The position numbers were made by a program, and so were the translations under genes. Below the pieces are notes generated by a model. That model ran no database searches and was not told where the DNA came from. It saw only the letters and a program-made list of their open reading frames with translations. A DNA stretch of 56,829 bases from Bacillus sp. J33 (GTDB taxonomy: Bacteria > Bacillota > Bacilli > Bacillales > Cytobacillaceae). Position 1 is the first letter of the stretch; every line of letters begins with the position of its first letter. Location: positions 1 through 56,829 of the forward strand of contig NZ_JAEL01000025.1 in NCBI RefSeq assembly GCF_000518885.1, in the 5' to 3' direction. Positions 2,205 through 17,485 of this stretch are shown piece after piece.

Positions 2205-2253
2205 ATGACGTTTATTTAACGATATAATACCATTACGTTAAATAAATAGTCAA
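2205..2253 (-). promoter_or_regulatory. Promoter with shared CG-N9-CG operator for thioesterase-pdh
   Basis: On the minus strand TTGACT (2253-2248) is followed after 18 nt by TATTAT (2229-2224). The element with CG at 2220-2221 and CG at 2209-2210 (offset 11) starts in the -10 box. The same layout recurs at 5527, 8585 and 17434. A longer perfect inverted repeat is superimposed: TTTATTTAACG at 2211-2221 against CGTTAAATAAA at 2236-2246. Confidence 0.65.
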
Positions 2254-2279
2254 TAAATTGTAAAAAGTTTAAATATTCT

Positions 2280-2400
2280 TTTGGGGTGCGGGAGCAAAGT
2301 AATAGCTGGAGCGGTCCGCATCCATCGTCGGAGCTTGCACACTCTGTGCGTCGTCCGAGCTTAGGTGAGGATAGCCCGCCCGAAAAGCAGCAAACTTTAC
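2280..2400. repeat. Decayed GC-rich Bacillaceae intergenic repeat, copy 2
   Basis: This GC-rich non-coding stretch, read on the minus strand, begins GTTTGCTGCTTTTCGGGCGG and ends with a CCGCTCCAGC phrase, the two ends expected of the element. It contains a spurious 62-codon minus-strand open frame with no ribosome-binding site. Confidence 0.4.
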
Positions 2401-2416
2401 TCATACAGCCTTATAT

Positions 2417-2450
2417 AAAAAAGGATTAACCAGCTGGCTAATCCTTTTTT
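2417..2450 (-). terminator. Rho-independent terminator after the ABC ATPase gene
   Basis: AAAAAAGGATTA pairs with TAATCCTTTTTT around a 10-nt loop, just past the stop codon of the minus-strand ATPase gene. It separates the importer operon from the thioesterase promoter. Confidence 0.85.
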
Positions 2451-2456
2451 ATTATT

Positions 2457-3251
2457 CTATGAAAGAAGTGCACGATCACTTGCCATTTTTGTTCCGCGAA
2501 TTCGCTGAAATTCATTTAGCAGCTGTTCTATTGTTAATTGCTTTTTATGTTCCTCATCTACTTCAAGAATAATCTGGCCTTTGTCCATCATGATCAGCCT
2601 ATTGCCCAAGTCCAATGCCTGCTGCATATTATGGGTAACCATTAAAGTTGTTAAATTATATTTTTCTACAATCTCCTTTGTCAGGCTGGTGATAAGCTCG
2701 GCTCGGGCCGGATCAAGTGCAGCGGTGTGCTCATCAAGCAGCAGAATGGAAGGCTCAGTAAAAGTCGCCATCAACAATGACAACGCCTGCCTTTCACCTC
2801 CAGATAATAATCCAACCTTCGCATTCAGACGATTTTCAAGGCCAAGGTGAAGCGTTTCAAGCACTTCACGGAAATAGTCTTTACGCTTTTTCGTAACCCC
2901 TTTTCTTAATGTCCTTGTTTTATTCCTTGAAAATGCCATTGCGAGATTTTCCTCAATGGTCATGGAAGGAGCGGTCCCAGCCATCGGATCCTGGAAAACC
3001 CGTCCAATGAGTTTTGCGCGTTTGTATTCTGACATGCCTGTTACATTCTGACTGTCAATATAAACAGCTCCTACATCTGGAATCATTACCCCGGAGATGA
3101 TATTCATTAGAGTCGATTTTCCAGCTCCATTACTTCCAATTACCGTGACAAAGTCACCTTCATTTAATGTTAGGTTAATGGTATCAAGTGCAATTTTTTC
3201 ATCCGGTGTCCCTTCGTTAAAAACTTTATGAATCTGATTTAATTGCAGCAC
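2457..3251 (-). CDS. ABC transporter ATP-binding protein (TrpY/Z-type amino-acid or aromatic-compound importer)
   Basis: This is the cytoplasmic ATPase of the three-gene importer. It has a Walker A motif GSNGAGKST about 40 residues in, the signature LSGGERQ and a Walker B LLLDEH. The length, about 264 residues, is normal for the family. The first possible start (GTG 3260) has almost no spacing from the AAAGG ribosome-binding site, so GTG 3251 (giving MLQLNQIHKVF), 5-6 nt after AAGGGTGA, is preferred. It overlaps the 3' end of the permease gene, so the two are translationally coupled. The group belongs to the PF04392/COG1101/COG4120 type, some members of which bind tryptophan in streptococci. 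Its place beside pdh and paa suggests an aromatic substrate here, which is inference. Confidence 0.85.
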   Translation of the reverse strand: MLQLNQIHKVFNEGTPDEKIALDTINLTLNEGDFVTVIGSNGAGKSTLMNIISGVMIPDVGAVYIDSQNVTGMSEYKRAKLIGRVFQDPMAGTAPSMTIEENLAMAFSRNKTRTLRKGVTKKRKDYFREVLETLHLGLENRLNAKVGLLSGGERQALSLLMATFTEPSILLLDEHTAALDPARAELITSLTKEIVEKYNLTTLMVTHNMQQALDLGNRLIMMDKGQIILEVDEEHKKQLTIEQLLNEFQRIRGTKMASDRALLS

Positions 3252-4257
3252 CGGCTTCACCCTTTCTGCCTGACGGCAATTCGCTTAAAGACACACTTTC
3301 TGCCAGCCTTTTTGCTTTACGCTTTTTCTCTTTTGTACGGTCAATCACTTTCGGCATAATTAATGCAAGAATGACGATCGTGGCTGTAATCAGCTTCATA
3401 TCTCCAGGTTCAAGAAACTCTACCCGCAATGCCATTGTTACCACGATCCTGTAAATGATTGCCCCTCCAATTACGGCTAAAGTAGTTCTTGCAATTGTTT
3501 TTGTGCCAAATAACGCTTCCCCAATGATGACTGAGGCAAGACCGATAATAATCATTCCGATCCCCATCCCAACATCGGCAAAACCGCCCTGCTGGGCAAT
3601 AAGAGCTCCCGAAAAAGCAACCATGGCATTTGACAGGCCCAATCCAAGAATAACCATTAGGTTGGTATTTGCAGAAAGGCTCCGGATCATTCTTTTGTTG
3701 TCACCTGTAGCCCGCAAGGCCAATCCAATTTCAGTTTGGAGAAAACGATCAGTTAAGAATTTAATCGTAAATGTAACCAGTACCATAAAGAGAAGGATGC
3801 CCCATGTCCTTGGGAGGCTTTCGCCTAATCCAACCATGGATAAAATGCTGTTGAAAAAAGAATCAATTCCTGTTTGATCCCAAAAATCCCTCACATGTGT
3901 CATAGCCGTTTCCGTATTCAGCAAAGGGACGTTCGATTTCCCCATTATCCGAAGATTTATCGAATATAGAGCAATCATCATTAAGATCCCGGATAGGAGG
4001 GCATTAATTTTTCCGAAAGTATGGATAATTCCTGTGAGACAGCCTGCAATAAACCCTGCGAACAAAGCAATAACCGTAGCCATGAAAGGATTAACCCCAT
4101 TGAAAATCATTGTTGCTGCTACAGCAGCTCCAGTTACAAAGCTTCCATCAACAGTTAAATCGGGAAAATCGAGTACCCTAAACGATAAATACACTCCAAG
4201 TGCCATAATTGCGTAAATAATTCCAGATTCGAACGCACCGAATATGGCTGTAAACAC
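3226..4257 (-). CDS. ABC transporter permease (TrpY/COG4120 type)
   Basis: This 343-residue integral membrane protein has about eight to nine hydrophobic segments and a basic C-terminal tail (KEKKRKAKR). It matches the permease of the PF04392-linked importers, related to branched-chain amino-acid permeases. Start: GTG 4257 after AAAGGGTGTGA with 6-nt spacing. It lies between the binding-protein gene, from which it is separated by a strong hairpin, and the overlapping ATPase gene. It would form the membrane channel of the importer. The substrate cannot be read from the sequence. Confidence 0.85.
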   Translation of the reverse strand: MFTAIFGAFESGIIYAIMALGVYLSFRVLDFPDLTVDGSFVTGAAVAATMIFNGVNPFMATVIALFAGFIAGCLTGIIHTFGKINALLSGILMMIALYSINLRIMGKSNVPLLNTETAMTHVRDFWDQTGIDSFFNSILSMVGLGESLPRTWGILLFMVLVTFTIKFLTDRFLQTEIGLALRATGDNKRMIRSLSANTNLMVILGLGLSNAMVAFSGALIAQQGGFADVGMGIGMIIIGLASVIIGEALFGTKTIARTTLAVIGGAIIYRIVVTMALRVEFLEPGDMKLITATIVILALIMPKVIDRTKEKKRKAKRLAESVSLSELPSGRKGEAGAAIKSDS

Positions 4258-4318
4258 TAAGAATCACACCCTTTTTTTAATGAAATCTTTCTTAGCAGTT
4301 TTTCAAAGTGAAGAGCAT

Positions 4319-4357
4319 CCGGCAGGAGACCTACCAATAAACGGCTTGCCCTGCCGG
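4319..4357 (-). other. Intercistronic mRNA hairpin between binding protein and permease genes
   Basis: CCGGCAGG at 4319-4326 pairs with CCTGCCGG at 4350-4357, with no run of U after it on the minus-strand transcript. Hairpins like this often protect the upstream mRNA segment, so the binding protein is made in excess over the membrane parts. That function is inferred. Confidence 0.55.
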
Positions 4358-4374
4358 TAAAACATTAGCTCTTT

Positions 4375-5385
4375 CTATTCTTCATGGAACTCTGCAATAT
4401 CTGACCATTCTTCTTTTACTTCCAGCCCCTGCTGTTCGGCTGCTTTTTTATTAATGACCAGCTTAAGGCTGCTGGGAAGCTCAACAGGAATTTCAGATGG
4501 TTTTTTATTCCCTTTTAATACTTCAGCTGCCATTTTGCCGGTTTGGTATCCAAGGTCGTAGTAGCTGAATCCGCTAGCTGCAATGGCCCCGCGTTTCATT
4601 GAGTCTAACTCGCCGACAAACAGCGGAATCTTTTTACTGTTAGCAACCGAAATAACTGATTCCAGCGCCGAAACCACAGTATTATCTGTAGGAATATAGA
4701 TGGCATCCACTCTGCCTACCAGAGAATCTGCAGCCTGTTTGACTTCTGCAGAAGTTGAAACAGATGCTTCTATTATCTTTGCTCCTTTTGGCTCAGCCAG
4801 TTCCTTTACCTGCTTTACCTGGACTTCCGAGTTTTGCTCTCCGGAGTTATAAATAATGCCAATATTCTGGACATCCGCTTCATTAATCATAAAATCAATA
4901 GTCTTTGAAGTTCCTTCCGGGTGGTTATCTGTTGTACCAGTGATATTGTCTCCTGGCTTGTCAAAGGATTCAACCAGTCCAGCCCCAACAGGGTCTGTCA
5001 CTGATGTAAACAATATAGGAATATCCTTCGTTGCATTTAAGGCGCTGACAGCACTGGGTGTAGCATTGGCAAAGATCATATCGACTTTGTCACCGACAAA
5101 ATTATTGGCAATTGTCTGTGTATTATTCATATCTGCCTGTGCATTTTGAAAGTCAAATTTAACATTTTCACCTTCTTTGAATCCTTCATCCTCTAAAGCT
5201 TTTTTAAACCCCTCAGTTGCTGCATCTAAAGATGGATGCTCAACAAATTGGGTAATCCCAATTGTGTACTGCTTTTTTTCATTTCCATCTGCAGAGGAAC
5301 CATTGGATGCCTCCTGTCCACAGCCGCTTAAAACGAGCATGCCAGCAGCTATTAGCAAAGATAAAGCCTTTAACGATTTTTTCAT
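4375..5385 (-). CDS. ABC transporter substrate-binding lipoprotein (PF04392, TrpX-like)
   Basis: This 336-residue lipoprotein has a signal peptide and lipobox LVLSGC with the lipidated cysteine at C22, followed by a Ser/Asn-rich linker. The mature part is an ABC_sub_bind (PF04392) two-lobe fold (YTIGITQFVEHPSLD near the N-terminus; FTSVTDPVGAGLV in the middle). It is anchored outside the membrane and delivers ligand to the permease. Streptococcal TrpX of this family binds tryptophan. Here the shared regulation and location with pdh and paa genes point to phenylalanine or a related aromatic. First gene of the importer operon; start ATG after TTGGGGGAA. Confidence 0.85.
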   Translation of the reverse strand: MKKSLKALSLLIAAGMLVLSGCGQEASNGSSADGNEKKQYTIGITQFVEHPSLDAATEGFKKALEDEGFKEGENVKFDFQNAQADMNNTQTIANNFVGDKVDMIFANATPSAVSALNATKDIPILFTSVTDPVGAGLVESFDKPGDNITGTTDNHPEGTSKTIDFMINEADVQNIGIIYNSGEQNSEVQVKQVKELAEPKGAKIIEASVSTSAEVKQAADSLVGRVDAIYIPTDNTVVSALESVISVANSKKIPLFVGELDSMKRGAIAASGFSYYDLGYQTGKMAAEVLKGNKKPSEIPVELPSSLKLVINKKAAEQQGLEVKEEWSDIAEFHEE

Positions 5386-5443
5386 ACCGTTTCCCCCAAT
5401 TCTAAATATTGACTGCCAGAACCCCTGATAGTAATAACCTTTA

Positions 5444-5457
5444 TGTATGCGCTTACA
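5444..5457. promoter_or_regulatory. Candidate CcpA cre site in the importer operon leader
   Basis: TGTATGCGCTTACA fits the cre consensus at 13 of 14 positions (T instead of A at position 5). It sits about 90 nt downstream of the predicted start site, a usual place for roadblock repression. Confidence 0.55.
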
Positions 5458-5526
5458 TCATGTTGTAATAAAACGGCGATAAGTTTTCTCAAAGGTGTTT
5501 TAAACATTTATATGATATTTACTTTG

Positions 5527-5576
5527 AATATCGTAAATACAACGTTATATTATCACCAGACTCATCTGAGTGTCAA
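5527..5576 (-). promoter_or_regulatory. Promoter with shared CG-N9-CG operator for the ABC importer
   Basis: On the minus strand a consensus TTGACA (5576-5571) is followed after 18 nt by TAATAT (5552-5547). The element AATATCG-N9-CGTTATAT (plus-strand reading, 5527-5550) overlaps the -10 box. It has the same CG-to-CG offset of 11 as the elements before paaX, paaK and the thioesterase gene. Occupancy would block RNA polymerase, so a repressor is expected. Confidence 0.7.
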
Positions 5577-5644
5577 TAATATTCCAAAAATTTAATATTT
5601 TTAGACAAGTAGGGCTGTTTAACGTTTATAAAAGCTCTGTATCT

Positions 5645-5735
5645 GCCCATTTTTTTACAGGCACACAAGCTTTCCGCGGGGAGGAATGAAAACCTCCTCG
5701 CCTTCGTCTGTGTGGGGTTTGCCACCCGAAAACAT
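5645..5735. repeat. Decayed GC-rich Bacillaceae intergenic repeat, copy 3
   Basis: It contains GGCACACAAGCTTTCCGCGG followed by GAGGA...TCCTCG and GCCTTCGTCTGTGTGGGG, the core of the common element. It is non-coding and lies between the importer promoter and the flavoprotein terminator. Confidence 0.5.
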
Positions 5736-5744
5736 AGCCTAAAT

Positions 5745-5776
5745 AAAAAACATGCAGGCTGATCACAACCTGCATG
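5745..5776 (-). terminator. Terminator after the nitronate monooxygenase-like gene
   Basis: CATGCAGG pairs with CCTGCATG, with AAAAAA on the plus strand (U-run on the minus-strand transcript). It directly follows the stop codon. Confidence 0.8.
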
Positions 5777-6727
5777 CTAGTCTAATAGCTCTTTTGCTTT
5801 TTGAAGCTGATGATTTGCTTCAACTACCATTTTATCTAAAAGTTCCTTTACACTCGGGAGATCAGCAATCAGCCCTGATATTTGGCCGCTATTCATAAAC
5901 CCTTTATCCCCATTGCCCTCTATAGCACCAATTTTATGATAATCCTCTGTTGTCAAAGAATTAAAATCATCAAGACTGATTCCCTCTTTCTCAAGATCAA
6001 GAAGCTTATGGGCAAAGCCGGTGGACAGAACTCTCCTGATCCTGCCAACTGACCGGCCGATAATTACTGTTTCATGGTCAGATGCTTCAATAATTTTCTT
6101 TTTATATTCAGGATGAAATGGAGCTTCTTTTGTAGCTATAAACCTTGTACCCATTTGTATGCCGCTTGCCCCTAGAGCCAGCATAGCCGCAAGTCCTTTT
6201 CCATCCCCAATTCCACCGGCAGCAACCACAGGAACAGAAACCTTATTGATGATTTGAGGGATTAATGCGAGTGTTGTTGTTTCCAGTGAAGAATTTATTC
6301 CAGCGGCTTCATAGCCCTCAGCTGCAATGATATCCGCACCTGCGGACTCTGCCTTCACTGCCTGCCTGACGGATGCTGCAACAGTTATTACCTTTATTCC
6401 ATTTTCATGCAGTTTCGGTATAAAAGGAGCAGGGTTTCCAGCAGATAGGGATACGACAGGTACCTTATGTTTAATGACATGAGACAATATTTCTTTTACA
6501 TAGGGAGAGACACTCAGTGCCACATTGACGGCAAATGGCTTGTCAGTGCGGCTTTTTGTTTCCAGAATGATCTTATCGACCTCATCTGGCGGCATTGTCC
6601 CTGCCCCAATTGTGCCAAGTCCGCCTGCTTCTGATACTGCTGATGTTAAAATGGCATTGCTTATATTCCCCATCCCCCCCTGGATAATCGGATATTTTAT
6701 ATCCAAAATGCTCGTTAACATATTCAA
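5777..6727 (-). CDS. Nitronate monooxygenase / FabK-like FMN flavoprotein
   Basis: This 316-residue TIM-barrel flavoprotein has the family start (YPIIQGGMG), the phosphate-binding AAGGIGDGKGL and GIQMGTRFIATKEA, and a C-terminal SGQISGLI. The family includes nitronate monooxygenases, which oxidise alkyl nitronates with FMN and O2, and FabK enoyl-ACP reductases. The sequence alone does not decide between them. Start: TTG 6727, 6-7 nt after GGGGGAA, rather than the ATG two codons later. It is transcribed away from the PaaY-like gene and has a weak copy of the island operator in its leader, so a role linked to acyl or aromatic catabolism is possible. Confidence 0.75.
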   Translation of the reverse strand: MNMLTSILDIKYPIIQGGMGNISNAILTSAVSEAGGLGTIGAGTMPPDEVDKIILETKSRTDKPFAVNVALSVSPYVKEILSHVIKHKVPVVSLSAGNPAPFIPKLHENGIKVITVAASVRQAVKAESAGADIIAAEGYEAAGINSSLETTTLALIPQIINKVSVPVVAAGGIGDGKGLAAMLALGASGIQMGTRFIATKEAPFHPEYKKKIIEASDHETVIIGRSVGRIRRVLSTGFAHKLLDLEKEGISLDDFNSLTTEDYHKIGAIEGNGDKGFMNSGQISGLIADLPSVKELLDKMVVEANHQLQKAKELLD

Positions 6728-6739
6728 TTAAATTCCCCC

Positions 6740-6761
6740 TTCGTTAAAATAATGTTATACT
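6740..6761 (-). promoter_or_regulatory. Weak copy of the shared CG-N9-CG operator before the flavoprotein gene
   Basis: On the minus strand TATAACA-N9-CGA keeps the half-site spacing of the four stronger copies, but one CG has become CA. It lies directly upstream of the GGGGGAA ribosome-binding site. Confidence 0.35.
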
Positions 6762-6819
6762 AATTTTAATAGTTTGACAATTAAGAGTTTGTTCACTTTT
6801 AAAATCAGGGGGAATCTCA

Positions 6820-7365: not shown

Positions 7366-7368
7366 AAG

Positions 7369-7392
7369 AAGCCGTTTAACAGCGGCTTTTTT
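7369..7392 (+). terminator. Terminator after the PaaY-like gene
   Basis: AAGCCG pairs with CGGCTT around a short loop, followed by TTTTTT. It starts 3 nt after the stop codon. Confidence 0.85.
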
Positions 7393-7428
7393 CCAGGTTT
7401 AAGGAGGTATTATGAATTCCATTGGTCG

Positions 7429-7676: not shown

Positions 7677-7678
7677 CA

Positions 7679-8554
7679 TTACTCTACCATATATGGATGA
7701 TTAAGAACGTCATAATCGGCATCCCGATTCTTCAGTTCATTCCCCTCCCTAAATACACTTTCAAAAAATCTGGAAGCCGGTTCTGCCAGTTCTTTATAAT
7801 AATCACTGAATAAAGCAGCAGCATGACTGCCAAGCCACTTATCAGGGAGAAGTTCTTCGGGAAGCCCCGGATCGACAAAAAGGAATTTTCTGTATTCATG
7901 CACAAGCTTTGTTCTTTCCACGAAGCATTCTGCATCACTCATATTCCCCTTTTGAATTTTATTTTTATCAATTATATATTTTTGGCTGTACTCAGAAATA
8001 AATTCCTGGTATCTGTCATTTATTTCTTGAAGGTTCCAGCTTTTTTCGACAATCTCAATATTTTTATGCGGACCTGCATATTTCGCAATAAAGAAATCGA
8101 CATAGTTAGCGATATCATATTTTTCTATAAGGTCAAATACTTGTTTTTCCAGATTATTTGCAGAAATCCAGCAGCTGCTGGACATGGATCCAAAGCCGCT
8201 CCAAACAAGCTCCTTCCGCAATTCATCCCGTATATTGCGAATCTCTTCAGGAATGGTATACATTAAAATGCGCCATTGACCATCCCATCCTTCAGGCTTT
8301 AATTTAAAAATGCGCTTAGCAGCTTCCTCAATTCTTTTCTGCCCTCTTGAAGTTAAAGAATAGTAGCTTTTATTGCCAATCTTTTCAGCCTGGACCCATC
8401 CCTGCTTATTCATTCTTGAAATAGCCGCTCTTACAGATTGATCGTTATGGCCAAATTCGCTTAATAGCTTAATTAGGCTGCCAATCCAGATTTTGCTTCC
8501 GTAATGTGAAATATAATCTCCATAAAGTGTAAAAATCATTGACCTTGTATTCAA
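7679..8554 (-). CDS. paaX: PaaX-family transcriptional repressor of phenylacetate catabolism
   Basis: This 291-residue protein has an N-terminal winged-helix domain (about 1-75, with HNDQSVRAAISRMNKQGWV) followed by the PaaX middle and C-terminal domains (EGWDGQWRILMYTIPEE; LPDKWLGSHAAALF). In E. coli PaaX represses paa operons and is released by phenylacetyl-CoA, the product of PaaK. A TTG start at 8554 after GAGGATGGAAGCAAG is the best choice, as an in-frame ATG only comes several codons later. Its own upstream region carries the shared operator (8585-8610), consistent with autoregulation. It is the only paa-type regulator visible here, so it is the best candidate to bind all the elements. 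Confidence 0.9.
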   Translation of the reverse strand: MNTRSMIFTLYGDYISHYGSKIWIGSLIKLLSEFGHNDQSVRAAISRMNKQGWVQAEKIGNKSYYSLTSRGQKRIEEAAKRIFKLKPEGWDGQWRILMYTIPEEIRNIRDELRKELVWSGFGSMSSSCWISANNLEKQVFDLIEKYDIANYVDFFIAKYAGPHKNIEIVEKSWNLQEINDRYQEFISEYSQKYIIDKNKIQKGNMSDAECFVERTKLVHEYRKFLFVDPGLPEELLPDKWLGSHAAALFSDYYKELAEPASRFFESVFREGNELKNRDADYDVLNHPYMVE

Positions 8555-8584
8555 CTTGCTTCCATCCTCATTTCATTAAGTGGG

Positions 8585-8610
8585 TTATACGGAAAAAATA
8601 CGTTATATAA
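8585..8610 (-). promoter_or_regulatory. Shared CG-N9-CG operator upstream of paaX
   Basis: TTATACG-N9-CGTTATATAA has the CG-to-CG offset of 11 found in the other copies. It overlaps an AT-rich -10-like stretch 31 nt and more upstream of the paaX start. A -35/-10 pair is less clear here than at the importer and thioesterase promoters. Confidence 0.6.
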
Positions 8611-8720: not shown

Positions 8721-9926
8721 TCAGCAGTCATCTCGCTCAACGATTGTGGAAATCCCCTGGCCCACACCTACACACATAGCAGCGAGGCCATATTTTGAAT
8801 TTCTCCGTTTCATTTCATGAAGAAGAGTAGTGAGGATCCGTGCACCGCTTGCACCAAGCGGATGCCCAAATGCTATCGCCCCGCCATTAACATTTACTTG
8901 TTCTGGCGCAGCTTCAAGCTCTCTAATGCACGCAAGAGACTGAGAAGCAAATGCTTCATTCAGCTCTGTCAAATCAATATCCTTCATAGTAAGCCCTGCC
9001 CTATTTAATGCTTTTCTTGTTGAATAAACAGGACCTACTCCCATTATCGAAGGTTCAAGTCCTGCTGTTGCAGAAACAACATAGTTCCCAAGAGGCTTTA
9101 GTCCAAGCTCCTTGGCTTTTTGAGCTGACATCAGAAGCAAGGCAGCTGCCCCGTCATTTACCCCTGAAGCATTTCCGGCTGTTACGGATCCCCCCTTGAA
9201 AATCGGCCTTAATACTGAAAGCTTTTCATAGGTAGTTTCCGGTCGGGGATGTTCATCACAGGCAACTATGAGTTCATTTCCTTTTTTATCCTTGTAAACC
9301 ACAGGAATGATTTCATCTTCGAAAAGCCCTTTTTCCAAAGCCGCTTTAGCTTTCATCTGGCTCTTCAAAGCAAACTCGTCCTGCTCCTCACGAGTGATTC
9401 CAAACTTTTCAGCAACATTCTCTGCAGTCTGCGGCATACTTTCAGCACCATACATTTCTTCCAGCCTGCTATTTGTAAAACGCCAGCCGATTGTTGTATC
9501 ATACATTTCCATATTCCCTCTTGGGAACTCATTACTTGGCTTAGCCATGACAAAAGGTGCCCGGGTCATGCTTTCAGTGCCGCCTGCAATAAAAATTTCC
9601 CCTTCCCCTGCCAATATAGCCCGCGCAGCATAGTTAACGGCGTCTAATCCAGAACCGCAGAGCCGGTTAACGGTTGATGCTGCCACCCCGACTGGCAAAC
9701 CGGCAAGAAGAGCTGACATCCTGGCAACATTACGATTATCTTCGCCTGCCTGGTTGGCATTCCCCATTATAACTTCTTCTATTTCATGAGGGTTAACATT
9801 GGGATTTCTGTTAAGCAGCCCTTTGATAACAATGGCCCCTAAATCATCAGGACGTATGTCCTTTAAAGCACCTTTATATTTTCCAATTGGAGTCCTGACC
9901 GCATCAACTATAACAACTTTCCTCAT
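8721..9926 (-). CDS. paaJ: Acetyl-CoA acyltransferase, probable 3-oxoadipyl-CoA thiolase PaaJ
   Basis: This 401-residue thiolase has the acyl-accepting cysteine at C90 ([11 protein letters not shown]), the catalytic histidine in [10 protein letters not shown] near 358, and the second cysteine in [10 protein letters not shown] near 386. In the phenylacetate pathway it cleaves 3-oxoadipyl-CoA to acetyl-CoA and succinyl-CoA (and an earlier 3-oxo-5,6-dehydrosuberyl-CoA). Its start ATG overlaps the stop of paaH (ATGA), so the two are coupled. A fatty-acid thiolase is the alternative, but the operon context favours PaaJ. Confidence 0.88.
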
Positions 9927-10789
9927 TGTGCAGCTTCCTCTTTGGAAGAATAATCATATACACCTCTGCCTGATTTGCGGCCAAGCCTGCCTGCTTTCAC
10001 ATATTGTTCAAGCAGCGGTGCAGGACGGTACTTTTCCCCCAGCTTGCTGTGAAGATATTTTAAATTGTTAAGGCGTGTATCAAGTCCGACGAGGTCCCCC
10101 AGCTCAAATGGACCCATAGGATAATTTAATCCAAGCCTTATAGCTTTATCAATTTCTTCAGGAGTGCCAACCCCCTCCTGCAGCATATAAAATGCCTCAT
10201 TTCCGACAAGCGCGCTGATTCTGCTTGTTACGAACCCCGGAAACTCATTAATGATGACCGTTTCCTTACCCATTTGCTCGGCAGCTCTTTTAATTGCAAC
10301 TGCTGTTTCTTCACTCGTTTCAAGCCCTTTTATGATTTCCACAAGGGGCATCTTATGGACAGGATTAAAAAAATGCATGGCGATTACTTTATCAGGCCGT
10401 TTTGTATAAGATCCAATCTCTGTCGGACTCATCGTAGAAGTATTCGATGCAAAATAACAGGTTTCTGGAGCGTGCTGGTCAATCACTTCAAAGATATTTT
10501 TCTTAATGTCCATCACTTCTGGGACTGCCTCAATAACAAGGTCTGCTTCTTTCACATGCTGCGCAAGACTTATTGAATAATGAAGACGGCTTTTGCTTTC
10601 TTCCATATCTGCAATCGTCAGTTTATTTCTGGCAATTCCTTTTTCGAAAATGCTATTAATCTCTTTTTCTGCAAGGGCTAATTGTTCCTGGCTAATGTCA
10701 ACCAAAGTAGTATGAAAGCCTCCAACTGCACTGACATACGCGATTCCTCGCCCCATTACACCGGATCCGACCACAACAAGATTTTTCAA
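9923..10789 (-). CDS. paaH: 3-hydroxyacyl-CoA dehydrogenase PaaH
   Basis: This 288-residue NAD-dependent dehydrogenase has a Rossmann GSGVMG at 8-13 and the catalytic motif [15 protein letters not shown] (His near 139). The C-terminal 3HCDH domain ends with [13 protein letters not shown]. In the phenylacetate pathway it oxidises 3-hydroxyadipyl-CoA to 3-oxoadipyl-CoA. Start: TTG after TAGGGGGC with 6-nt spacing. It overlaps paaJ by four bases. A 3-hydroxybutyryl-CoA role is also possible, as the same fold serves both. Confidence 0.88.
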
Positions 10790-11026
10790 TTTAAAGCCCC
10801 CTAATGCAAATTTTTTTAGAGTTAACGTCGAGTTCTAAGCGGAGGAGCAATTCCCCGTAAATGACCGATTTGTTCAACTAACCATCAATGAAAAAACCTC
10901 GATGATAGTTAGTTTCCCTTATAAAAAGACGAGCACTCGGCACGAGATGCTCGCAAGAAAAACATTTATAGGGGAAATATTTTTACTTGCGCTCCGGACC
11001 TTACTATGGTTCTGGGCTATGTGTAT
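10790..11026. other. Intergenic region with two hairpins between paaG and paaH
   Basis: This 237-nt gap breaks an otherwise tight operon. AACTAACCATCA (10876-10887) pairs with TGATAGTTAGTT (10903-10914) with one mismatch, and CGAGCA (10930-10935) pairs with TGCTCG (10948-10953). Neither has a clear U-run on the minus strand, so they may be processing or stability hairpins. No promoter stands out. Confidence 0.4.
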
Positions 11027-11800
11027 CTACTTTCCCTGAAATACAGGCTTCCGCTTCTCGATAAAAGCTTTGACGCCTTCTTTATGGTCAAAAGTAAGGC
11101 CCGCAATGCGCTGTCCCTGTGCATCCCTTTCCAGACTCTCCTCCAATGTGGATTCCCAGCTCGCCTTCAGGTTCTTCTTTATAAGGCCAATAGCAGCTGT
11201 CGGCATACTCGCTAGCCTTTCAGCAAAAGCCATTACCTCATCATGCCACTGTTCTGCTGGAATTACTTTAGTAGCCAATCCCAGGCCCTTCGCTTCCTGG
11301 GCAGATATCTTTTCCCCCAGCACTGCCAGCTCCATTGCTTTCGCATGACCTATGAGCTTTGGCAGAAAATAAAGGTTTCCTGCATCAGGCACTAACCCCA
11401 CGTGGATAAAAGCCTCTAAAAAGCTGGCTTTTTCAGAGAGAAGCCTGAAGTCGCATGCCAATGCAAGGCTCATGCCTGCTCCTGCTGCCACACCATTAAC
11501 AGCTGCAATGACCGGCTTCTCACATTTATGCAGCTCCATCACCATCGGATTATAGAACTTACGGAGCACTTGGCCATGGTCCATGTCTTCATTTACACCC
11601 TGGAGATCCTGGCCGGAACAAAAGGCGCGCCCTTCACCAGTAATAACGAGGCAGCGGACCTCTTTGTCCCTGCTAGCCTGTTTAATTGACTGCTGGACCT
11701 CTTTATTTAATTGCTCAGTGAACGCGTTCAGTTTATCCGGGCGGTTTAATGTAATCCAGGCAATACCCTTTGCTGCTTCATATTTCACCGTTTCGAACAT
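11027..11800 (-). CDS. paaG: Enoyl-CoA hydratase/isomerase PaaG (ring 1,2-epoxyphenylacetyl-CoA isomerase)
   Basis: This 257-residue crotonase-fold protein has the oxyanion-hole segments GRAFCSGQDL (about 58-67) and AAVNGVAAGAGMSLALACD, and the PaaG-type SFLEAFIHVGLVPDAGN with an aspartate where the isomerase catalytic acid is expected. PaaG turns the ring epoxide of phenylacetyl-CoA into an oxepin and later shifts a double bond. Start: ATG after AGAGGAGGTGTACATAGCAA. It follows paaF on the same strand with an 18-nt gap. The aspartate-containing motif separates it from the true hydratase next door. Confidence 0.87.
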   Translation of the reverse strand: MFETVKYEAAKGIAWITLNRPDKLNAFTEQLNKEVQQSIKQASRDKEVRCLVITGEGRAFCSGQDLQGVNEDMDHGQVLRKFYNPMVMELHKCEKPVIAAVNGVAAGAGMSLALACDFRLLSEKASFLEAFIHVGLVPDAGNLYFLPKLIGHAKAMELAVLGEKISAQEAKGLGLATKVIPAEQWHDEVMAFAERLASMPTAAIGLIKKNLKASWESTLEESLERDAQGQRIAGLTFDHKEGVKAFIEKRKPVFQGK

Positions 11801-11818
11801 TTGCTATGTACACCTCCT

Positions 11819-12595
11819 CTATTTCCCTTTAAATTGAGGTTTTCGCTTTTCAATAAATGCCTGCATACCCTCTTTTTGATCTTCTGTAGAGAATAATAGA
11901 TAAAAATTCTTGCGTTCAAATTCCATTCCTTCATTTAAAGGGCTGTCCACCGCTTTGAGAACGGCTTCTTTAATAAGTCTGATTGAAATAGGTGCTTGAT
12001 TGGCTATCAGCTCAGCTGCTTTTATCGTTTCTTCCATTAGAAGTTCCTTTGAAATCAGGCTGTTGACAATCCCATGTTGGAGTGCTTCGCGGGCAGTTAT
12101 CCTTTTACCCGTAAAAAGCCATTCCATTGCCTTCGTTTTTCCAACGAGCTTGGTAAGGCGCTGCGTGCCGCCAGCCCCAGGCATAACACCCAAATTCACC
12201 TCCGGGAACCCGAATTCGGCATCATCCGCTGCATAGAGCAGATCACAGCATAAAGCAAGCTCGAAGCCTCCCCCAAGTGCGAAGCCCTGAACGGCTCCTA
12301 TAATCGGTTTCTTGATCATGGCAAGGCGGTCCCAATCCTTGAATTGGTTGCGAAGCTCAAAATCAATTGTGTTATCGTCCGCCATTTCATCGATATCTGC
12401 TCCGGCAGCGAAAGCCCTGCCCCTGCCGCTAATAACAATTGCCCGAATGCTGCTGTCTGCCTCAAAGCCTTCCATAGCTTCCAAAATCTCTGAAACCATT
12501 GGCCTATTAATGGCGTTCAGCACACTAGGCCGATTTAAAGCAATTAAACCTAGCTTCTCTTGCTTTGTAACATCAATATATTCATATTTACTCAT
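11819..12595 (-). CDS. paaF: Enoyl-CoA hydratase PaaF (2,3-dehydroadipyl-CoA hydratase)
   Basis: This 258-residue crotonase-fold hydratase has GRAFAAGADI for the oxyanion hole and EFGFPEVNLGVMPGAGGTQR with the catalytic glutamates of classical enoyl-CoA hydratases. In the pathway it hydrates 2,3-dehydroadipyl-CoA to 3-hydroxyadipyl-CoA for PaaH. Its ATG overlaps the last codons of the EthD-like gene, with GAGGAAG as ribosome-binding site, so the two are coupled. A general fatty-acid role cannot be excluded from the sequence. Confidence 0.87.
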   Translation of the reverse strand: MSKYEYIDVTKQEKLGLIALNRPSVLNAINRPMVSEILEAMEGFEADSSIRAIVISGRGRAFAAGADIDEMADDNTIDFELRNQFKDWDRLAMIKKPIIGAVQGFALGGGFELALCCDLLYAADDAEFGFPEVNLGVMPGAGGTQRLTKLVGKTKAMEWLFTGKRITAREALQHGIVNSLISKELLMEETIKAAELIANQAPISIRLIKEAVLKAVDSPLNEGMEFERKNFYLLFSTEDQKEGMQAFIEKRKPQFKGK

Positions 12596-12896
12596 CTACT
12601 TCCTCACCGATCATAAGCGTGATTAAATCACCGGCAAACTTCATTGCGTCTTTCCCGGAAGCTTTTCCTTCATCTGTTTTCATGGCAGTTTGCAAAGCTT
12701 CATGGCTGTCATAATACATTTCACACATTAAGTAGTACTTCCCTTCGCCCCCCATAGGACTGCCAACAATTTTTGTAACCTCCATCTTGCGGAGACCCGG
12801 AATTTTGGCTGTAAGCGGCGCGTGCGTATTAAAATAATGGTCATCAAATGCCTCCTTATTTTCAGGATGCTTATAAAGCGCGATTAATTTTACCAT
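12588..12896 (-). CDS. EthD-family small dimeric ferredoxin-like protein
   Basis: This 102-residue protein has the EthD signature: MVKLIALYKHPENKEAFDDHYFNTHAPL near the start, with D19, H20, Y21, N23, H25 and P27 as the conserved cluster. Members of the dimeric alpha-beta barrel family assist ring-oxidising or decarboxylating systems, but most have no assigned reaction. It is the first gene after paaD and overlaps paaF, so it is co-expressed with the epoxidase. Start: ATG after GAAAGGAAG. A role in the paa pathway is inferred from position only. Confidence 0.75.
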   Translation of the reverse strand: MVKLIALYKHPENKEAFDDHYFNTHAPLTAKIPGLRKMEVTKIVGSPMGGEGKYYLMCEMYYDSHEALQTAMKTDEGKASGKDAMKFAGDLITLMIGEEVDE

Positions 12897-13004
12897 TTGG
12901 TCAACTTCCTTTCGGGTTTATAGTAAATGAGTACATTTAATAGTATTCCTGGAGAAGAAATCATATGTTAATTGGTCAATCGGAAATGATTTTGATTCAC
13001 AAGG

Positions 13005-13121
13005 ATTTATCTGGCATATTTATTCGTTTTTCAACAACCTATTAGATTTATCTAGCAATCTCATGAATTTATCTGGCATATTCTCTGATTTATCTTGCAT
13101 CATTTAAATTTTATCTGGCAT
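13005..13121. repeat. Array of ATTTATCTGGCAT phrases at 21-bp spacing
   Basis: Close copies of ATTTATCTGGCAT start at 13005, 13046, 13067, 13088 and 13109. The last four are exactly 21 bp apart and the first is 41 bp before the second, as if one unit had decayed. The bases between units are not conserved. It fills the 300-nt gap between paaD and the EthD-like gene, which otherwise shows no gene or clear promoter. Confidence 0.7.
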
Positions 13122-13195
13122 TGTAAACAATTTGACCGCTAATCAAGAAAACGGCTATGTTTTTCTGAGTATTGGCAACTTTGGCAATCTATCAG

Positions 13196-13693
13196 CTACA
13201 TCATTGTCGATACCGGCTTCATTGCTTCAAATGGGTTTCTGCATGATTTGCAGTATAAAATACTGCGGCAGGCGGTTGGCCCAAAAAGGTTATCCATTGT
13301 CGTATATGCCGATCCGCAAAACGGGCATTCAACATGCCATTCACCCGTCTCATTAATCCGTTCAGGGGGAGGGGCAATCCCAAATTTTTTTAACTGTTTT
13401 CGTCCCTTTTCTGTAACCCTATCAGAGGTCCATGGAGGATGATAGATAAACTGGATTTCTATTTTTTCAAAAACGCCTGATTTCCCTAATTCTGCCTCAG
13501 CATTTTTTCGAATAATATCGAGCGCCGGACAGCCCATAAAAGTTGGCAAAAGTTTAACATGAACGGACTTGCCCTCAACTTCGAGATGCTCAACCATACC
13601 CAGATCAACAATTGAAATGGAATCTATTTCGGGGTCCTTCACATTTTGAAGCGCTTCCAACGCTGTTTTTTCCAATATTTGATCCTGCGCCAT
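13196..13693 (-). CDS. paaD: Phenylacetyl-CoA epoxidase maturation subunit PaaD
   Basis: This roughly 165-residue protein has an N-terminal MIP18/DUF59 domain (ALQNVKDPEIDSISIVDLGM) and a C-terminal four-cysteine cluster (CPFCGSAY and YCKSC). PaaD is needed for epoxidase activity and probably helps assemble the metal centre or iron-sulfur cofactor. ATG 13693 (MAQDQ), 7-8 nt after AGAAGGGTGA, is preferred over the GTG three codons earlier, which overlaps the ribosome-binding site. It follows paaC by about 20 nt. Confidence 0.9.
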   Translation of the reverse strand: MAQDQILEKTALEALQNVKDPEIDSISIVDLGMVEHLEVEGKSVHVKLLPTFMGCPALDIIRKNAEAELGKSGVFEKIEIQFIYHPPWTSDRVTEKGRKQLKKFGIAPPPERINETGEWHVECPFCGSAYTTMDNLFGPTACRSILYCKSCRNPFEAMKPVSTMM

Positions 13694-13715
13694 AACTATC
13701 ACCCTTCTGAAAAAC

Positions 13716-14531
13716 TTACCAGCTTGCAGCTGGAATTGCGTTATACACTTCGCTTAAAGTGGTTAACGCTGCATCAAGGTCGGCTGTATGCTCCCCTTTG
13801 CGGCCATCTCCATTTTTCATTGCGAAGTCTGCCTCTGAGACTGTTAGATTGACAGATTCAAAGACAGGTTTCATCACCAAAAGCCAGCGCTGCTTTAATA
13901 TTTCTTCCGTTTCGATGAGCCCGTTATCTGCCATTTCCTTTGCAGCCGGACCCAATGTAAGGACCCCTTCAAAATCGGATAGAACCTCTTTAACGGCAGC
14001 CTCCATCCTTGACCTTGCTTCGCCGCCTGCCTGCATTAGCTGGACAAACCATGTTCTCCAATGAAGGAGATGGTAATATAGCTCCATATTTACCTTTAAT
14101 GCCACATTGGCTAACGGCTGATAAGTTGAATTTTTTAGTGAATCCATTCGAACTTTCTTCGATTGAACGTAAAAATAGTTTCTCACTATGGCGAAGGCCC
14201 AGTCGTATTGCGCTGTAGATAAATAATGCCCAGGACCGTTTACCATTTCTAAGAGAACGGCATTTTTTCGCTCCGCAGCTTCCCTTCCATGGGCAAGATG
14301 ATCAACATTTCCTTCGCCGAGATCCTCCAGCAGCTGATATAGCATTGCCGCATGGCCCATTGTATCCTGACTGATTGATGAGAAGGCTACATCCTCCTCA
14401 ATATGCGGTGCAAGGCCAAGCCATTCCGAGCCGCGATAGGCAAGGATGAAGTCATCGTCAGCCAGCTGGTATAATAAAGAGGTAAGTGCTGAGTTCATTG
14501 AATCGCTTGGCTTTCTTTCAGGGTTACTCAC
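13716..14531 (-). CDS. paaC: Phenylacetyl-CoA epoxidase structural subunit PaaC
   Basis: This 271-residue, all-helical, ferritin-like protein begins the fold with LTSLLYQLADDDFILAYRGSEW and keeps ISQDTMGHAAMLYQLLEDLG in place of a full metal site. PaaC pairs with catalytic PaaA and is the structural partner in the PaaAC core of this multicomponent oxygenase. The GTG start overlaps the end of paaB; the ribosome-binding site GGGAGGG lies inside paaB. The order paaA-B-C-D is as in other clusters. Confidence 0.9.
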   Translation of the reverse strand: MSNPERKPSDSMNSALTSLLYQLADDDFILAYRGSEWLGLAPHIEEDVAFSSISQDTMGHAAMLYQLLEDLGEGNVDHLAHGREAAERKNAVLLEMVNGPGHYLSTAQYDWAFAIVRNYFYVQSKKVRMDSLKNSTYQPLANVALKVNMELYYHLLHWRTWFVQLMQAGGEARSRMEAAVKEVLSDFEGVLTLGPAAKEMADNGLIETEEILKQRWLLVMKPVFESVNLTVSEADFAMKNGDGRKGEHTADLDAALTTLSEVYNAIPAASW

Positions 14532-14874
14532 TTTTCTTCATCCCTCCCCATGACAAGATTTCCTTTTCATCAAGCATTTCCTGCTCATAGTGACGCCATT
14601 TTTTCTTCAAATATCCATACCCTTTAGTGGTTCGATACTCTTTGTTATCCAAGCGCTGCAATGATTGTTTTTCTTCTAATGTCATCTTTCGGATATCTGA
14701 TCGTTTAACCACCCAAATATCAGCTACCGGCTCTCTCCTCATAAAATTCTCCTGAGCCATCACGAGGGCAAGCTCCCGATTTGGTGCCAGCAGAGAAAAT
14801 TGATATTGGAGAGGAGAGGCGTCGGTTCGTTTGCTAAAGACTTCAAACTCCTGATAAAACCCTTTGCTTCCCAA
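14524..14874 (-). CDS. paaB: Phenylacetyl-CoA epoxidase bridging subunit PaaB
   Basis: This roughly 116-residue protein matches PaaB: YQEFEVFSKRTDASPLQYQFSLLAPNREL and LAMAQENFMRRE-like text (here LVMAQENFMRREPV), ending in a basic tail. PaaB links PaaAC dimers into the active complex. TTG 14874 (MGSKGFYQEF) lies 5-6 nt after a GGGAGGG site and is preferred. The ATG at 14889 would overlap that site and has no good site of its own. It overlaps paaC by eight bases and follows paaA by a short gap. Confidence 0.88.
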   Translation of the reverse strand: MGSKGFYQEFEVFSKRTDASPLQYQFSLLAPNRELALVMAQENFMRREPVADIWVVKRSDIRKMTLEEKQSLQRLDNKEYRTTKGYGYLKKKWRHYEQEMLDEKEILSWGGMKKSE

Positions 14875-14898
14875 ATTGTTCCCTCCCATCTCGTCATT

Positions 14899-15858
14899 TT
14901 AATTTGTTGTATTAAGGGCATCTCGCACCCATTTGTTCGTATCGTAAGCTGTGCGGCGCAGTCCTAGTCGCTCTTTGGATTTCGGCCCGTTATTTTTAAT
15001 AATATCCTTAAACTTGTTCCAATCGGGCTCTTTATACACCCATAGATTCTTTTCCTGATCAAAATGCATTGTTTCATCCGGAATTGTTAGGCCAAGGGAA
15101 AGAACCCGCGGTATATATTTTGTAAAGAAGTCCTGCCTCAGCTCTTCGTTCGTCTTACTCCTGATCTTATACTTTATGGTTGTATCCTGTTTGGAAGTTC
15201 CTGTAGCAGTTGCATCCCCAGGTCCGAAAAACATTAGTAAAGCTTCCCACCAGCGGTTAACAGCATCCTGAACCATCGCTTTTTGCTCATCAGTTCCTTC
15301 AGCCAAGGCCATGATAATTGCTTCACCATGCTGAGCATGGAAAACCTCTTCGGCACAAATTCGTTTTAGTGCCCGGGCATATGGACCGTAAGAGGCATTA
15401 AGCATATTGGTCTGTGTAATAATAGCCGCACCGTCAACCAGCCAGCCAATCAAGCCTGCATCCCCCCAAGTTGGCGCCTCCATATGGAAGACGTTGTGGA
15501 ACTTAAGCCTGCCGCTGAATAGATCCTGCATAATATCTTCACGCGTTTTGCCGAGTGGCTTCATTAAATCCTCAGCAACACGGAGCAGCAGCTGCCCGTG
15601 ACCCATCTCATCCTGTACCTTTGCCATGATCCCAAGCTTTCGTTTTAATGAAGGAGCTTTAGGCACCCACTCTTTTTCAGGCAGCGCCCCCATGATTTCA
15701 CTAATGCCATGCATCGAAATCAATTTAATCAATGTCATTCGGTAATCTTCCGGCATCCAATCATCCGCCTCGATTTTTTCACCTGCATCAATGCGTTTCA
15801 TAAAATGCTCATATTTTTGCTCTTCTGTCCATTCCTGATATGAAATTACTCCAGACAT
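14899..15858 (-). CDS. paaA: Phenylacetyl-CoA epoxidase catalytic subunit PaaA
   Basis: This roughly 319-residue diiron protein is the oxygenase that makes the 1,2-epoxide of phenylacetyl-CoA. Diiron ligand motifs are visible: VQDEMGHGQLLLR (E and H of helix 2) and CAEEVFHAQHGEAI (E, E and H of the second pair). The C-terminal DWNKFKDIIKNNGPKSKERL is typical of PaaA. ATG 15858 (MSGVISYQ), 5-6 nt after GGGGGTGAAA, is preferred over the GTG three codons earlier. It heads paaABCD; the reductase gene paaE that usually completes the set is not found. Confidence 0.92.
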   Translation of the reverse strand: MSGVISYQEWTEEQKYEHFMKRIDAGEKIEADDWMPEDYRMTLIKLISMHGISEIMGALPEKEWVPKAPSLKRKLGIMAKVQDEMGHGQLLLRVAEDLMKPLGKTREDIMQDLFSGRLKFHNVFHMEAPTWGDAGLIGWLVDGAAIITQTNMLNASYGPYARALKRICAEEVFHAQHGEAIIMALAEGTDEQKAMVQDAVNRWWEALLMFFGPGDATATGTSKQDTTIKYKIRSKTNEELRQDFFTKYIPRVLSLGLTIPDETMHFDQEKNLWVYKEPDWNKFKDIIKNNGPKSKERLGLRRTAYDTNKWVRDALNTTN

Positions 15859-15914
15859 AAGTTTCACCCCCAGTGAAATAAAACTCTTTTATCATAATTG
15901 TTGGTTTGCTTATA

Positions 15915-16070
15915 TATCTTGCCCGTTGATGTCCGCTGCGGGGAGAGATGGCAGCCTCCCCGGCTTCGCCAGTGGGGTCCCTTACCTCCCTCTATTCCCG
16001 CACGAAGAAAATACGAATCCATTTTCGCGGAGTCAAGTACCCTCCGCTCCAATCAACTCAGCCAGGTAAA
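15915..16070. repeat. Decayed GC-rich Bacillaceae intergenic repeat, copy 4
   Basis: It begins GTTGATGTCCGCTGCGGGGA, contains CCTCCCCGGCTTCGCC and TATTCCCGCA, and ends CTCCGCTCCAATCAAC, the classical end phrase of this element. It lies between paaK and paaA on their transcript. Its arms can fold, so it may act on transcript structure. Confidence 0.6.
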
Positions 16071-16082
16071 CTAAGTTCGCCT

Positions 16083-17390
16083 TCAGGTAACCGTATTTTC
16101 CTTTATGCGATTCACAATACGTACAGCTTTGCCTTCCGATCTTGGCAAGGCATTCAGCGGATGAATTTCAAGCCCGATACTGATAAAGCAATGCTGTTTC
16201 AACGCTTGATGAATTTTCTTTTTTACCAATTCGGTTTCTTTCATATTCCGATAAAACCCTTCGCTCCATTCAGCGTGAAGTTCCAGCGATTTTAAGCTTC
16301 CTCCTTGAAGCACATGAATTTGATAGTGCGGAGCGAGTTCCGGTATCTGCAAAATGCATCGCTCAATTTCGGAAGGGAAAACGTTAACTCCATTTACATT
16401 CAGCATATCATCTATCCGGCCTTTTACACGGCTCATGCGAATAGTAGTCCGGCCGCACCGGCATTTTTCTTTCGAAATGGAGGCTATGTCGCCGGTACGA
16501 TATCGAATCACTGGAAAAGCCTCCTTGGTTAAACTTGTGAAAACCAATTCTCCTTCTTCACCACTTGGAAGCGGTTTCATTTCTGCAGGATCAATAACCT
16601 CTACATAAAAATGGTCTTCGGCAATGTGAAGCCCATTTTGGGCTTCATGGCACTCCATGGCTACTCCCGGCCCCAGCACTTCACTAAGCCCATAAATATC
16701 GCATGCTTTAATTCCTAGTTTTTCTTCCAAAGTATTCCTCATCTCTTCCGACCAAGGTTCAGCGCCGAAAATGCCATACTTTAATGAAGTCTTTGCTGGA
16801 TCGATCCCCTGGTATTCCATCTTTTCAGCCAGATTCAAGATATAGGAAGGAGTTCCGCAAATGACTTCAGGCTGAAAGTCTTGTATAAGCATAATTTGCC
16901 TATCTGTATTCCCTCCAGATATAGGGACGGTTGCCATACCAAGCTTTTCACTTCCATAATGGAGCCCCAGACCCCCGGTAAAAAGACCATATCCATAGGC
17001 ATTATGCAAGGTCTGACCCGGAAGTCCTCCTCCAATCGTGATGGCCCTGGCTATGAGATTGCCCCACATTTCAATGTCATTGCGGGTATACCCGACAACA
17101 GTCGGCTTTCCGCTTGTACCTGAGGAAGCGTGAAGCCGGACAATATCCTTTTTACCCACAGCAAAAAGCCCGAATGGGTAATGTTCACGCAGATCTGCTT
17201 TAACGGTAAATGGCAGCTTTTCAATATCATCCAGGCTGTTTATATCTTCAGGTGTAATATTACTTTCCAAAAACGTTTTCCGGTAAAAAGGCACTTTGTT
17301 AAATACTCTGTTCACTGTCTGCTTGAGCCGATTCAACTGCAGCTTTTCTATATAATCGCGGCTTTCCGTTTCAACATCATGCAGAATCAA
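16083..17390 (-). CDS. paaK: Phenylacetate-CoA ligase PaaK
   Basis: This 435-residue adenylate-forming enzyme makes phenylacetyl-CoA from phenylacetate, CoA and ATP in the cytoplasm, the first committed step. The AMP-binding motif SSGTSGKPTVVGYT is at about 89-102, followed by YGLSEVLGPGVAMEC and the hinge region RMSRVKGRIDDMLNVNGVNVFPSEIE. A GGGAGGT site lies inside the longest open frame (17403-17397), 7 nt before TTG 17390 (start MILHDVETES). That start is therefore preferred over ATG 17417, which has no site. It is the first gene of the catabolic operon; its promoter carries the best copy of the shared operator. Confidence 0.9.
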   Translation of the reverse strand: MILHDVETESRDYIEKLQLNRLKQTVNRVFNKVPFYRKTFLESNITPEDINSLDDIEKLPFTVKADLREHYPFGLFAVGKKDIVRLHASSGTSGKPTVVGYTRNDIEMWGNLIARAITIGGGLPGQTLHNAYGYGLFTGGLGLHYGSEKLGMATVPISGGNTDRQIMLIQDFQPEVICGTPSYILNLAEKMEYQGIDPAKTSLKYGIFGAEPWSEEMRNTLEEKLGIKACDIYGLSEVLGPGVAMECHEAQNGLHIAEDHFYVEVIDPAEMKPLPSGEEGELVFTSLTKEAFPVIRYRTGDIASISKEKCRCGRTTIRMSRVKGRIDDMLNVNGVNVFPSEIERCILQIPELAPHYQIHVLQGGSLKSLELHAEWSEGFYRNMKETELVKKKIHQALKQHCFISIGLEIHPLNALPRSEGKAVRIVNRIKENTVT

Positions 17391-17433
17391 GGCAAGACCT
17401 CCCAGGTTCATTATCATTTTAGAATAATATTTT

Positions 17434-17485
17434 ATATAACGTTTATATATCGTTATATTTAATATGTGTCATATATTTAACACAA
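17434..17485 (-). promoter_or_regulatory. paaK promoter with perfect shared operator
   Basis: ATATAACG-N9-CGTTATAT (17434-17458) is a perfect 8-bp inverted repeat and the strongest copy in the island. On the minus strand a TTGTGT (17485-17480), 17-nt spacer and TTAAAT (17462-17457) fit a promoter whose -10 box touches the operator. This is the expected target for repression of the paa genes by PaaX. Confidence 0.7.

Follow-up and report, generated by a model that had tools for sequence, protein, structure and literature searches.

The stretch of DNA analysed here (the window; 56,829 nucleotides, bases 1–56829 of contig NZ_JAEL01000025.1 of Bacillus sp. J33) contains a phenylacetate (paa) island in which a dehydrogenase gene (585), a thioesterase gene, an ABC importer, a flavoprotein gene, the regulator gene paaX and the paa genes follow one another, with paaK outermost at 17417. 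The sequence-only reading of this island had proposed that the importer, thioesterase, paaX and paaK promoters (the four main sites) carry an AT-rich element with two CG dinucleotides 11 bp apart, that a weaker copy precedes the flavoprotein gene and that PaaX controls them all. The CG pairs are present as described at 2209/2220, 5532/5543, 8590/8601 and 17440/17451, the copy at paaK forms an 8-bp inverted repeat without mismatch (ATATAACG-N9-CGTTATAT) and the element at these promoters is real and recurrent in relatives. It amounts, however, to about half of the whole: at three of the five promoters, the complete element is an inverted repeat of 39 bp, TATRAC-N27-GTYATA (N27 denoting 27 bp between the arms), with the second CG inside it, 11 bp from one arm (Table 1).

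The element in its own genome

Within the window, the bare pattern CG-N9-CG is not enriched (49 found against 53.3 expected) and was rejected as evidence; WWAACG-N9-CG is mildly enriched (7 against 2.9 expected). Since the bare pattern is unenriched, the window could not prove the claim by itself and other genomes were used for comparison. A reversed-pattern control was unusable for this motif, because reversal turns CG into GC. When both strands of the window were scanned with a weight matrix built from 107 unique sites outside the window, the highest scores fell at the importer (31.0), paaK (27.5), thioesterase (23.8), paaX (22.0) and flavoprotein (13.5) promoters; the next non-overlapping place scored 3.6. 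A sequence-only model trained on 74 of the 107 sites was then applied to the whole genome (5.56 Mb, 196 contigs). Among the 150 of 2450 first-look candidates that were scored, the four main sites ranked first, with expectation values (E) of 0.0018–0.017 on the better strand, and the two best other places had E values of 0.23 and 0.53. Model matches on contigs C119 (at the start of an open reading frame) and C34 (inside one) were set aside as chance; neither coincides with an N27 pair. The flavoprotein site did not appear in the genome-wide scan up to E = 10, so that the weaker copy, although visible to the matrix in the window, remains ambiguous.

The placement of the sites relative to promoter boxes, whose assignment is a reading of the sequence, varies. 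At the importer promoter, a −35 box (TTGAC) is followed by an extended −10 box (TGATAATAT) abutting the left arm, and in the thioesterase promoter the −35 (TTGACT) and −10 (TATTAT) boxes flank one of the arms. The paaX site is just downstream of a likely −10 box (TACAAT), and the flavoprotein site overlaps a possible −10 box and adjoins the ribosome-binding site. The suggestion that a −10 box touches or overlaps the element fails at paaK, where the site is downstream of the likely −10 box (TATCTT) and makes no contact with it. The paaK operator contains an additional inner TATAACG, which forms the perfect 8-bp repeat. As for autoregulation, the short form is found at the paaX gene itself, with the other arm matching at three of six positions at N27.

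Table 1. Sites and genes of the paa island (positions in the window)
Feature	Position	Strand	Sequence or profile evidence
Operator, thioesterase–dehydrogenase operon	2204–2242	−	TTTAAC-N27-GTCATA on the gene strand, 11/12; inner CG 11 bp from right arm
Operator, importer operon	5511–5549	−	TATAAC-N27-ATCATA, 11/12; inner CG 11 bp from left arm
Weak single-arm site, flavoprotein gene	6734–6762	−	TATAACA-N9-CG
Single-arm site, paaX promoter	8582–8610	−	TATAACG-N9-CG; second arm 3/6 at N27
Operator, paaK-led paa operon	17435–17473	−	TATGAC-N27-GTTATA, 12/12
paaX, presumed repressor	7679–8554	−	TIGR02277, 344.2 bits (cut-off 264.55); three PaaX Pfam domains
paaK, phenylacetate-CoA ligase gene heading the paa operon	16083–17417	−	TIGR02155, 616 bits, just below cut-off (646)
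paa genes A, B, C, D, EthD-like, F, G, H, J	8721–15867	−	Profile matches
ABC importer, substrate-binding protein (TrpX-like)	4375–5385	−	PF04392; NF041285 (TrpX), 301 bits, below cut-off (390)
ABC importer, ATPase and permease	2457–4257	−	PF00005, PF02653
FlK-type hotdog thioesterase	1784–2173	−	PF22636; solved thioesterases including FlK match
Glu/Leu/Phe/Val dehydrogenase, probably phenylalanine dehydrogenase	585–1694	−	PF02812, PF00208
Nitronate-monooxygenase-like flavoprotein	5777–6727	−	PF03060

Conservation of the short form

Of the 193 family genomes, 100 have a PaaX match. For each ortholog, the 400 bp upstream were taken from the genomic surroundings of paaX and the adjacent genes, each genome contributing a single stretch per gene, and orthologs were dropped if the match began after residue 15, if identity was below 49% or if fewer than 150 bp were available upstream. 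In genomes other than that of the window, TATRWCG-N9-CG occurs within 400 bp upstream of the importer in 35/35 cases, paaX in 34/62, the thioesterase in 26/38, paaA in 20/43, paaK in 10/21 and the flavoprotein in 6/50; the six flavoprotein orthologs carry the full TATRACG-N9-CG and all come from one genus. The remaining twelve gene classes give no match at spacing 9 except paaF (3/48) and one each for paaJ, EthD and paaB, and spacings from 5 to 13 other than 9 give at most two matches each in any of the 18 gene classes. When sites scoring at least 12 on the matrix are counted, the figures become 35/35 (importer), 37/62 (paaX), 27/38 (thioesterase), 26/43 (paaA), 13/21 (paaK) and 17/50 (flavoprotein), with 9/19 for a carbonic-anhydrase-like neighbour (divergent from the flavoprotein gene in the window), 3/47 for paaJ and none for ten further classes.

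The same recurrence is seen in 51 further Bacillaceae loci (L159–L209; 1.01 Mb), which belong to a set of 80, the other 29 being closer relatives. Every locus has at least one site at a matrix score of 13 or more, and 141 of the 150 sites precede a recognised island gene, with nine unassigned. Eight of the 51 are from training genomes; the other 43, from Rossellomorea, Sutcliffiella, Parageobacillus, Jeotgalibacillus, Peribacillus and others, are independent of the training set, having no match of 500 bp or longer above 93% identity. Two side cases concern importers of a family (LIV-type) different from that of the window: a full operator lies 239 bp before a permease gene off the paa contig (L216:3069–3113), and an operator with a weak second arm precedes a permease gene beside the paa locus (L221:2636–2680). 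Because the operator precedes their permease genes in these two genomes, LIV-type importers seem to have joined the regulon.

The full operator

Anchoring orthologous promoters on the short site exposed a further conserved block, which a spacing scan resolved as a second arm; this far arm had played no role in the selection of sites. As it is conserved at N27, the short element is to be understood as a single arm together with the inner CG at a distance of 11 bp. With both arms matching at no fewer than five of six positions, N27 pairs are found in the training genomes at 33/35 importer, 29/29 paaA, 12/13 paaK and 17/27 thioesterase promoters, and at none of those of paaX (0/36) or the flavoprotein (0/17). 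The corresponding figures for the 43 independent loci are 25/30, 23/23, 3/5, 17/26, 8/18 and 0/4, respectively. The paaA and paaK promoters are alike, so their counts are not independent. Other spacings from 15 to 43 reach a maximum of 11 in any gene class. Over all unique promoters with a site in the 43 loci, pairs matching at 10/12 or better occur at N27 in 89/106, at N11 in 58/106 and at N14 in 46/106. The window itself has three N27 pairs at 11/12 or better, namely those of the thioesterase, importer and paaK promoters, two at N11 and at most one at any other spacing, where simulated windows average 0.35 per spacing. Apart from the island sites, none of the genome-wide model matches coincides with any of the places at which the outer pair occurs with at most one mismatch.

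Which protein reads the operator

PaaX is the only recognisable regulator among the genes conserved next to the sites. Seven further gene families occur in at least eight of 98 loci: five have Pfam matches, none of them regulatory (two E1 subunits, an E2, an aldehyde dehydrogenase and a nitroreductase), and two have no Pfam match. Among the part of the window's open reading frames that was scanned, other regulator candidates lie outside the island (YebC-like, 26539; YheO-like, 34135; OmpR-type, 36871). The window PaaX adjoins the paa gene cluster and is 97% identical to PaaX records of Cytobacillus oceanisediminis, which makes its host very probably a Cytobacillus. Among the 95 genomes in which PaaX is strongly matched, 82 have a model match with E ≤ 0.05, as against 7 of the 98 others (about five expected by chance), a comparison that ignores relatedness and is also confounded by the presence of the paa pathway. 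All 70 thioesterase-bearing genomes have PaaX. Three of the seven PaaX-less genomes with model matches were examined; loci L217 and L218 have low scores of 5.7 and 11.8 on the full 45-bp matrix. Genome G161, which is 85% complete, has a good site before paaA and no PaaX match.

A joint absence of paaX and the sites is seen in G057, of the same genus, in which paaA–G are present: its genome has no PaaX or thioesterase match, its 19.9-kb paa locus (L091) has no site of 7 bits or more and no model match is found genome-wide. The L091 stretch retains paaA–G and two importer genes and lacks PaaX, the flavoprotein, the thioesterase and the operator.

The strongest sign that PaaX is the reader is that the same build recurs beside a different PaaX. 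Eight Bacillaceae loci (L093–L099 and L103) encode a second PaaX (PaaX2), 45–49% identical to the first, and contain the motif TATTAY-N26-RTAATA 15 times, compared with at most four for any other spacing. In every one of the 15 copies, a CG is found at exactly 11 bp from an arm. Each copy also stands at the start of a reading frame: 14 precede it by 14–42 bp, and the remaining one spans the start as called. A de novo dyad count in these loci was swamped by A/T runs and was discarded in favour of the spacing scan, which resolved the motif. The PaaX2 gene is accompanied by that of a remote PaaA homologue, which scores under the curated cut-off; in locus L094, an adenine-deaminase-like amidohydrolase and a protein of the MBL fold are encoded as well, each likewise scoring under its cut-off. 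The likely recognition-helix residues differ among PaaX, PaaX2 and Escherichia coli PaaX, and these differences may track the arm sequence.

The spacing is also that of the E. coli system: TGATTC(N27)GAATCA is reported in a review as the site of E. coli PaaX (PMC9493321), and the paaA promoter of E. coli K-12 contains TGATTC-N27-GAATCG. Co-occurrence, linked genes, the E. coli spacing, the PaaX2 motif and the loss in G057 together support the earlier proposal of one shared operator, to which PaaX is predicted to bind, as the best interpretation by a wide margin.

Alternative explanations

Several observations weigh against this assignment. The second arm is absent at paaX in all 36 unique training sites (it is present at 8/18 elsewhere) and at the flavoprotein gene in all 21 sites, and the outer pair is not specific by itself, as it occurs at 41 places in the genome with at most one mismatch, three of them in the island. 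No model match at E = 0.05 or better is found in 13 of the 95 genomes with a strong PaaX match, three of which (G100, G126 and G128) have only a paralog-like PaaX score. The loss of paaX is represented by one genome, which also lacks several target genes. In E. coli, the candidate on the paaZ side has a spacing of 28 and the paaX promoter has no N27 pair; the Bacillaceae arms are TATRAC and not TGATTC; and seven intergenic stretches of the paa cluster of Pseudomonas plasmid pSTY contain no E. coli-type pair at 5/6 per arm. The missing arms at paaX and the flavoprotein gene, where only the short form is present, would fit a variant of our proposal in which PaaX reads nothing but the short element with its 11-bp spacing, the outer arm being a separate second site. 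N11 pairs are also the second commonest (58/106). N27 pairs are nevertheless commoner (89/106) and exact to the base, the reported E. coli site is likewise N27, and the PaaX2 motif has both outer arms together with the inner CG in 15/15 copies; we consider this variant, whose probability overlaps with that of the full proposal, rather unlikely.

It is considerably less probable that the sites belong to another regulator, such as a TetR-type PaaR or a distant amino-acid-sensing protein, with PaaX a mere neighbour and target. The presence of sites at amino-acid uptake genes would suit such a regulator, which could be encoded far from the island, and PaaR, which reportedly controls paa genes in Thermus and others, has a consensus also centred on AACG/CGTT. 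However, within two mismatches that consensus is matched once in the window (2.0 expected), at a place not in the island, no other recognisable regulator is present in the families conserved beside the sites, the E. coli PaaX spacing of 27 recurs and a related motif that shares the inner CG is present in the PaaX2 clusters. The least credible explanation, and a very improbable one, is that the motif is a conserved core promoter (extended −10 box plus start) in AT-rich DNA that is served by no dedicated regulator. The left arm at the flavoprotein gene may indeed itself be a −10 box, with its CG touching the ribosome-binding site, but the paaK and paaA arms are downstream of the likely −10 boxes, the spacing is exact to the base, ten operon-internal gene classes give no site at matrix threshold 12, the paa operon of the paaX-less genome has no site and the four main sites come first genome-wide among the 150 of 2450 candidates scored.

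Proposed mechanism and gene functions

We are thus left, with high confidence, with the element as the PaaX operator of Bacillaceae, at which PaaX would repress transcription until released by phenylacetyl-CoA. A PaaX dimer would read the inverted arms TATRAC and GTYATA, 27 bp apart; as the arm starts are separated by 33 bp, or about three helical turns, both arms would lie on one face of the DNA, and a further contact may be made at the inner CG, 11 bp or one turn from an arm. Bound PaaX would cover the −10 box and start region at the importer, thioesterase, paaX and flavoprotein promoters, and the start and early leader at paaK. Given this placement, it would probably repress transcription by blocking the polymerase. 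That phenylacetyl-CoA would release PaaX is proposed by analogy with E. coli: according to the same review, the first pathway intermediate (compound II, taken as phenylacetyl-CoA) inhibits PaaX binding there (PMC9493321).

Phenylacetyl-CoA would be supplied by PaaK from phenylacetate and, in relatives, probably also from phenylalanine via the dehydrogenase and a 2-oxoacid dehydrogenase. The E1 alpha family is present in 72/98 loci, E1 beta in 64/98 and E2 in 34/98. Genes for E1 alpha, E1 beta and E2 of a 2-oxoacid dehydrogenase lie near the dehydrogenase gene at L031:1132–3194 and L032:18185–19408. As the E1 genes directly follow the dehydrogenase in L031, a route from phenylalanine through phenylpyruvate to phenylacetyl-CoA is suggested in these organisms. 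E1 and E2 genes are not found beside the dehydrogenase in the window, where the contig ends 584 bp beyond it.

The window dehydrogenase best matches leucine dehydrogenases and has, in the alignment, Gly and Leu where those have Ala and Val. Because of these two residues, which are taken as marks of phenylalanine dehydrogenases, it probably uses phenylalanine. The proposal of a single regulon for uptake, deamination, thioester hydrolysis and the paa pathway is supported, with the qualifications that the flavoprotein copy is weak and that the assignment of phenylalanine draws on those two residues. The C-terminal part of PaaD (13196–13702) weakly matches a haloarchaeal PaaE model, below its cut-off; no separate PaaE reductase was found among the paa-cluster proteins scanned.

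Implications

If the assignment is correct, a regulon leading from phenylalanine to central metabolism would be under PaaX, and one signal would tie amino-acid uptake and deamination to phenylacetate breakdown. For PaaX in Bacillaceae, an operator and a set of target genes would become available for testing; searches of the open-licence literature yielded no paper describing such a site. On a wider scale, we lean towards, without holding firmly to, the view that PaaX-family repressors from Enterobacteria through to Bacillaceae share a single geometry (arms in inverted orientation on the same side of the DNA, spaced by about 27 bp), with drift in the sequence of the arms (TGATTC, TATRAC, TATTAY). 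In this view, PaaX2 would be insulated from its parent by one arm base and one spacing base with the inner CG kept, and the Bacillaceae regulon would have recruited different importers, the thioesterase, a probable 2-oxoacid dehydrogenase and phenylalanine dehydrogenase. The two paralogs, each with its own version of the operator, would then represent a natural case of a specificity split after duplication.

Comparison with known systems

The operator reported for E. coli PaaX resembles that of Bacillaceae in having two inverted 6-bp arms with 27-bp spacing at a paa promoter and a linked PaaX-family gene. The Bacillaceae operator differs in the inner CG 11 bp from an arm, and its targets extend to the amino-acid importer, the thioesterase–dehydrogenase operon and perhaps the flavoprotein. 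The E. coli arms (TGATTC/GAATCA) have two two-mismatch matches in the window, both inside genes (4.7 expected), and three actinobacterial loci with PaaX-like genes, scanned in two stretches each, showed no E. coli-type pair at 5/6 per arm. One of these PaaX-like genes is adjoined by ATGTAAC-N26-GTTACAT, an inverted repeat with 7-bp arms (L214:12846). A stretch from Azospira contained no paa genes. Other 7-bp repeats at assorted spacings occur in L211 (one, N20), pSTY (four) and E. coli (several).

In Thermus and others, paa genes are reported to be under the TetR-type PaaR, with the operator AACnAACGTTnGTT (PMC6651687, PMC9493321). This operator shares with the Bacillaceae site the control of phenylacetate genes and the letters AACG/CGTT, but its reader belongs to another protein family and its arms are adjacent rather than 27 bp apart. 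A further counterpart is in the PaaX2 clusters, where inverted arms and an inner CG 11 bp from an arm are again found at gene starts, with arms of TATTAY/RTAATA and a spacing of 26 in place of those of the main operator. The PaaX regulon is thus known as a type, and what is new in Bacillaceae is the operator sequence and the wider membership.

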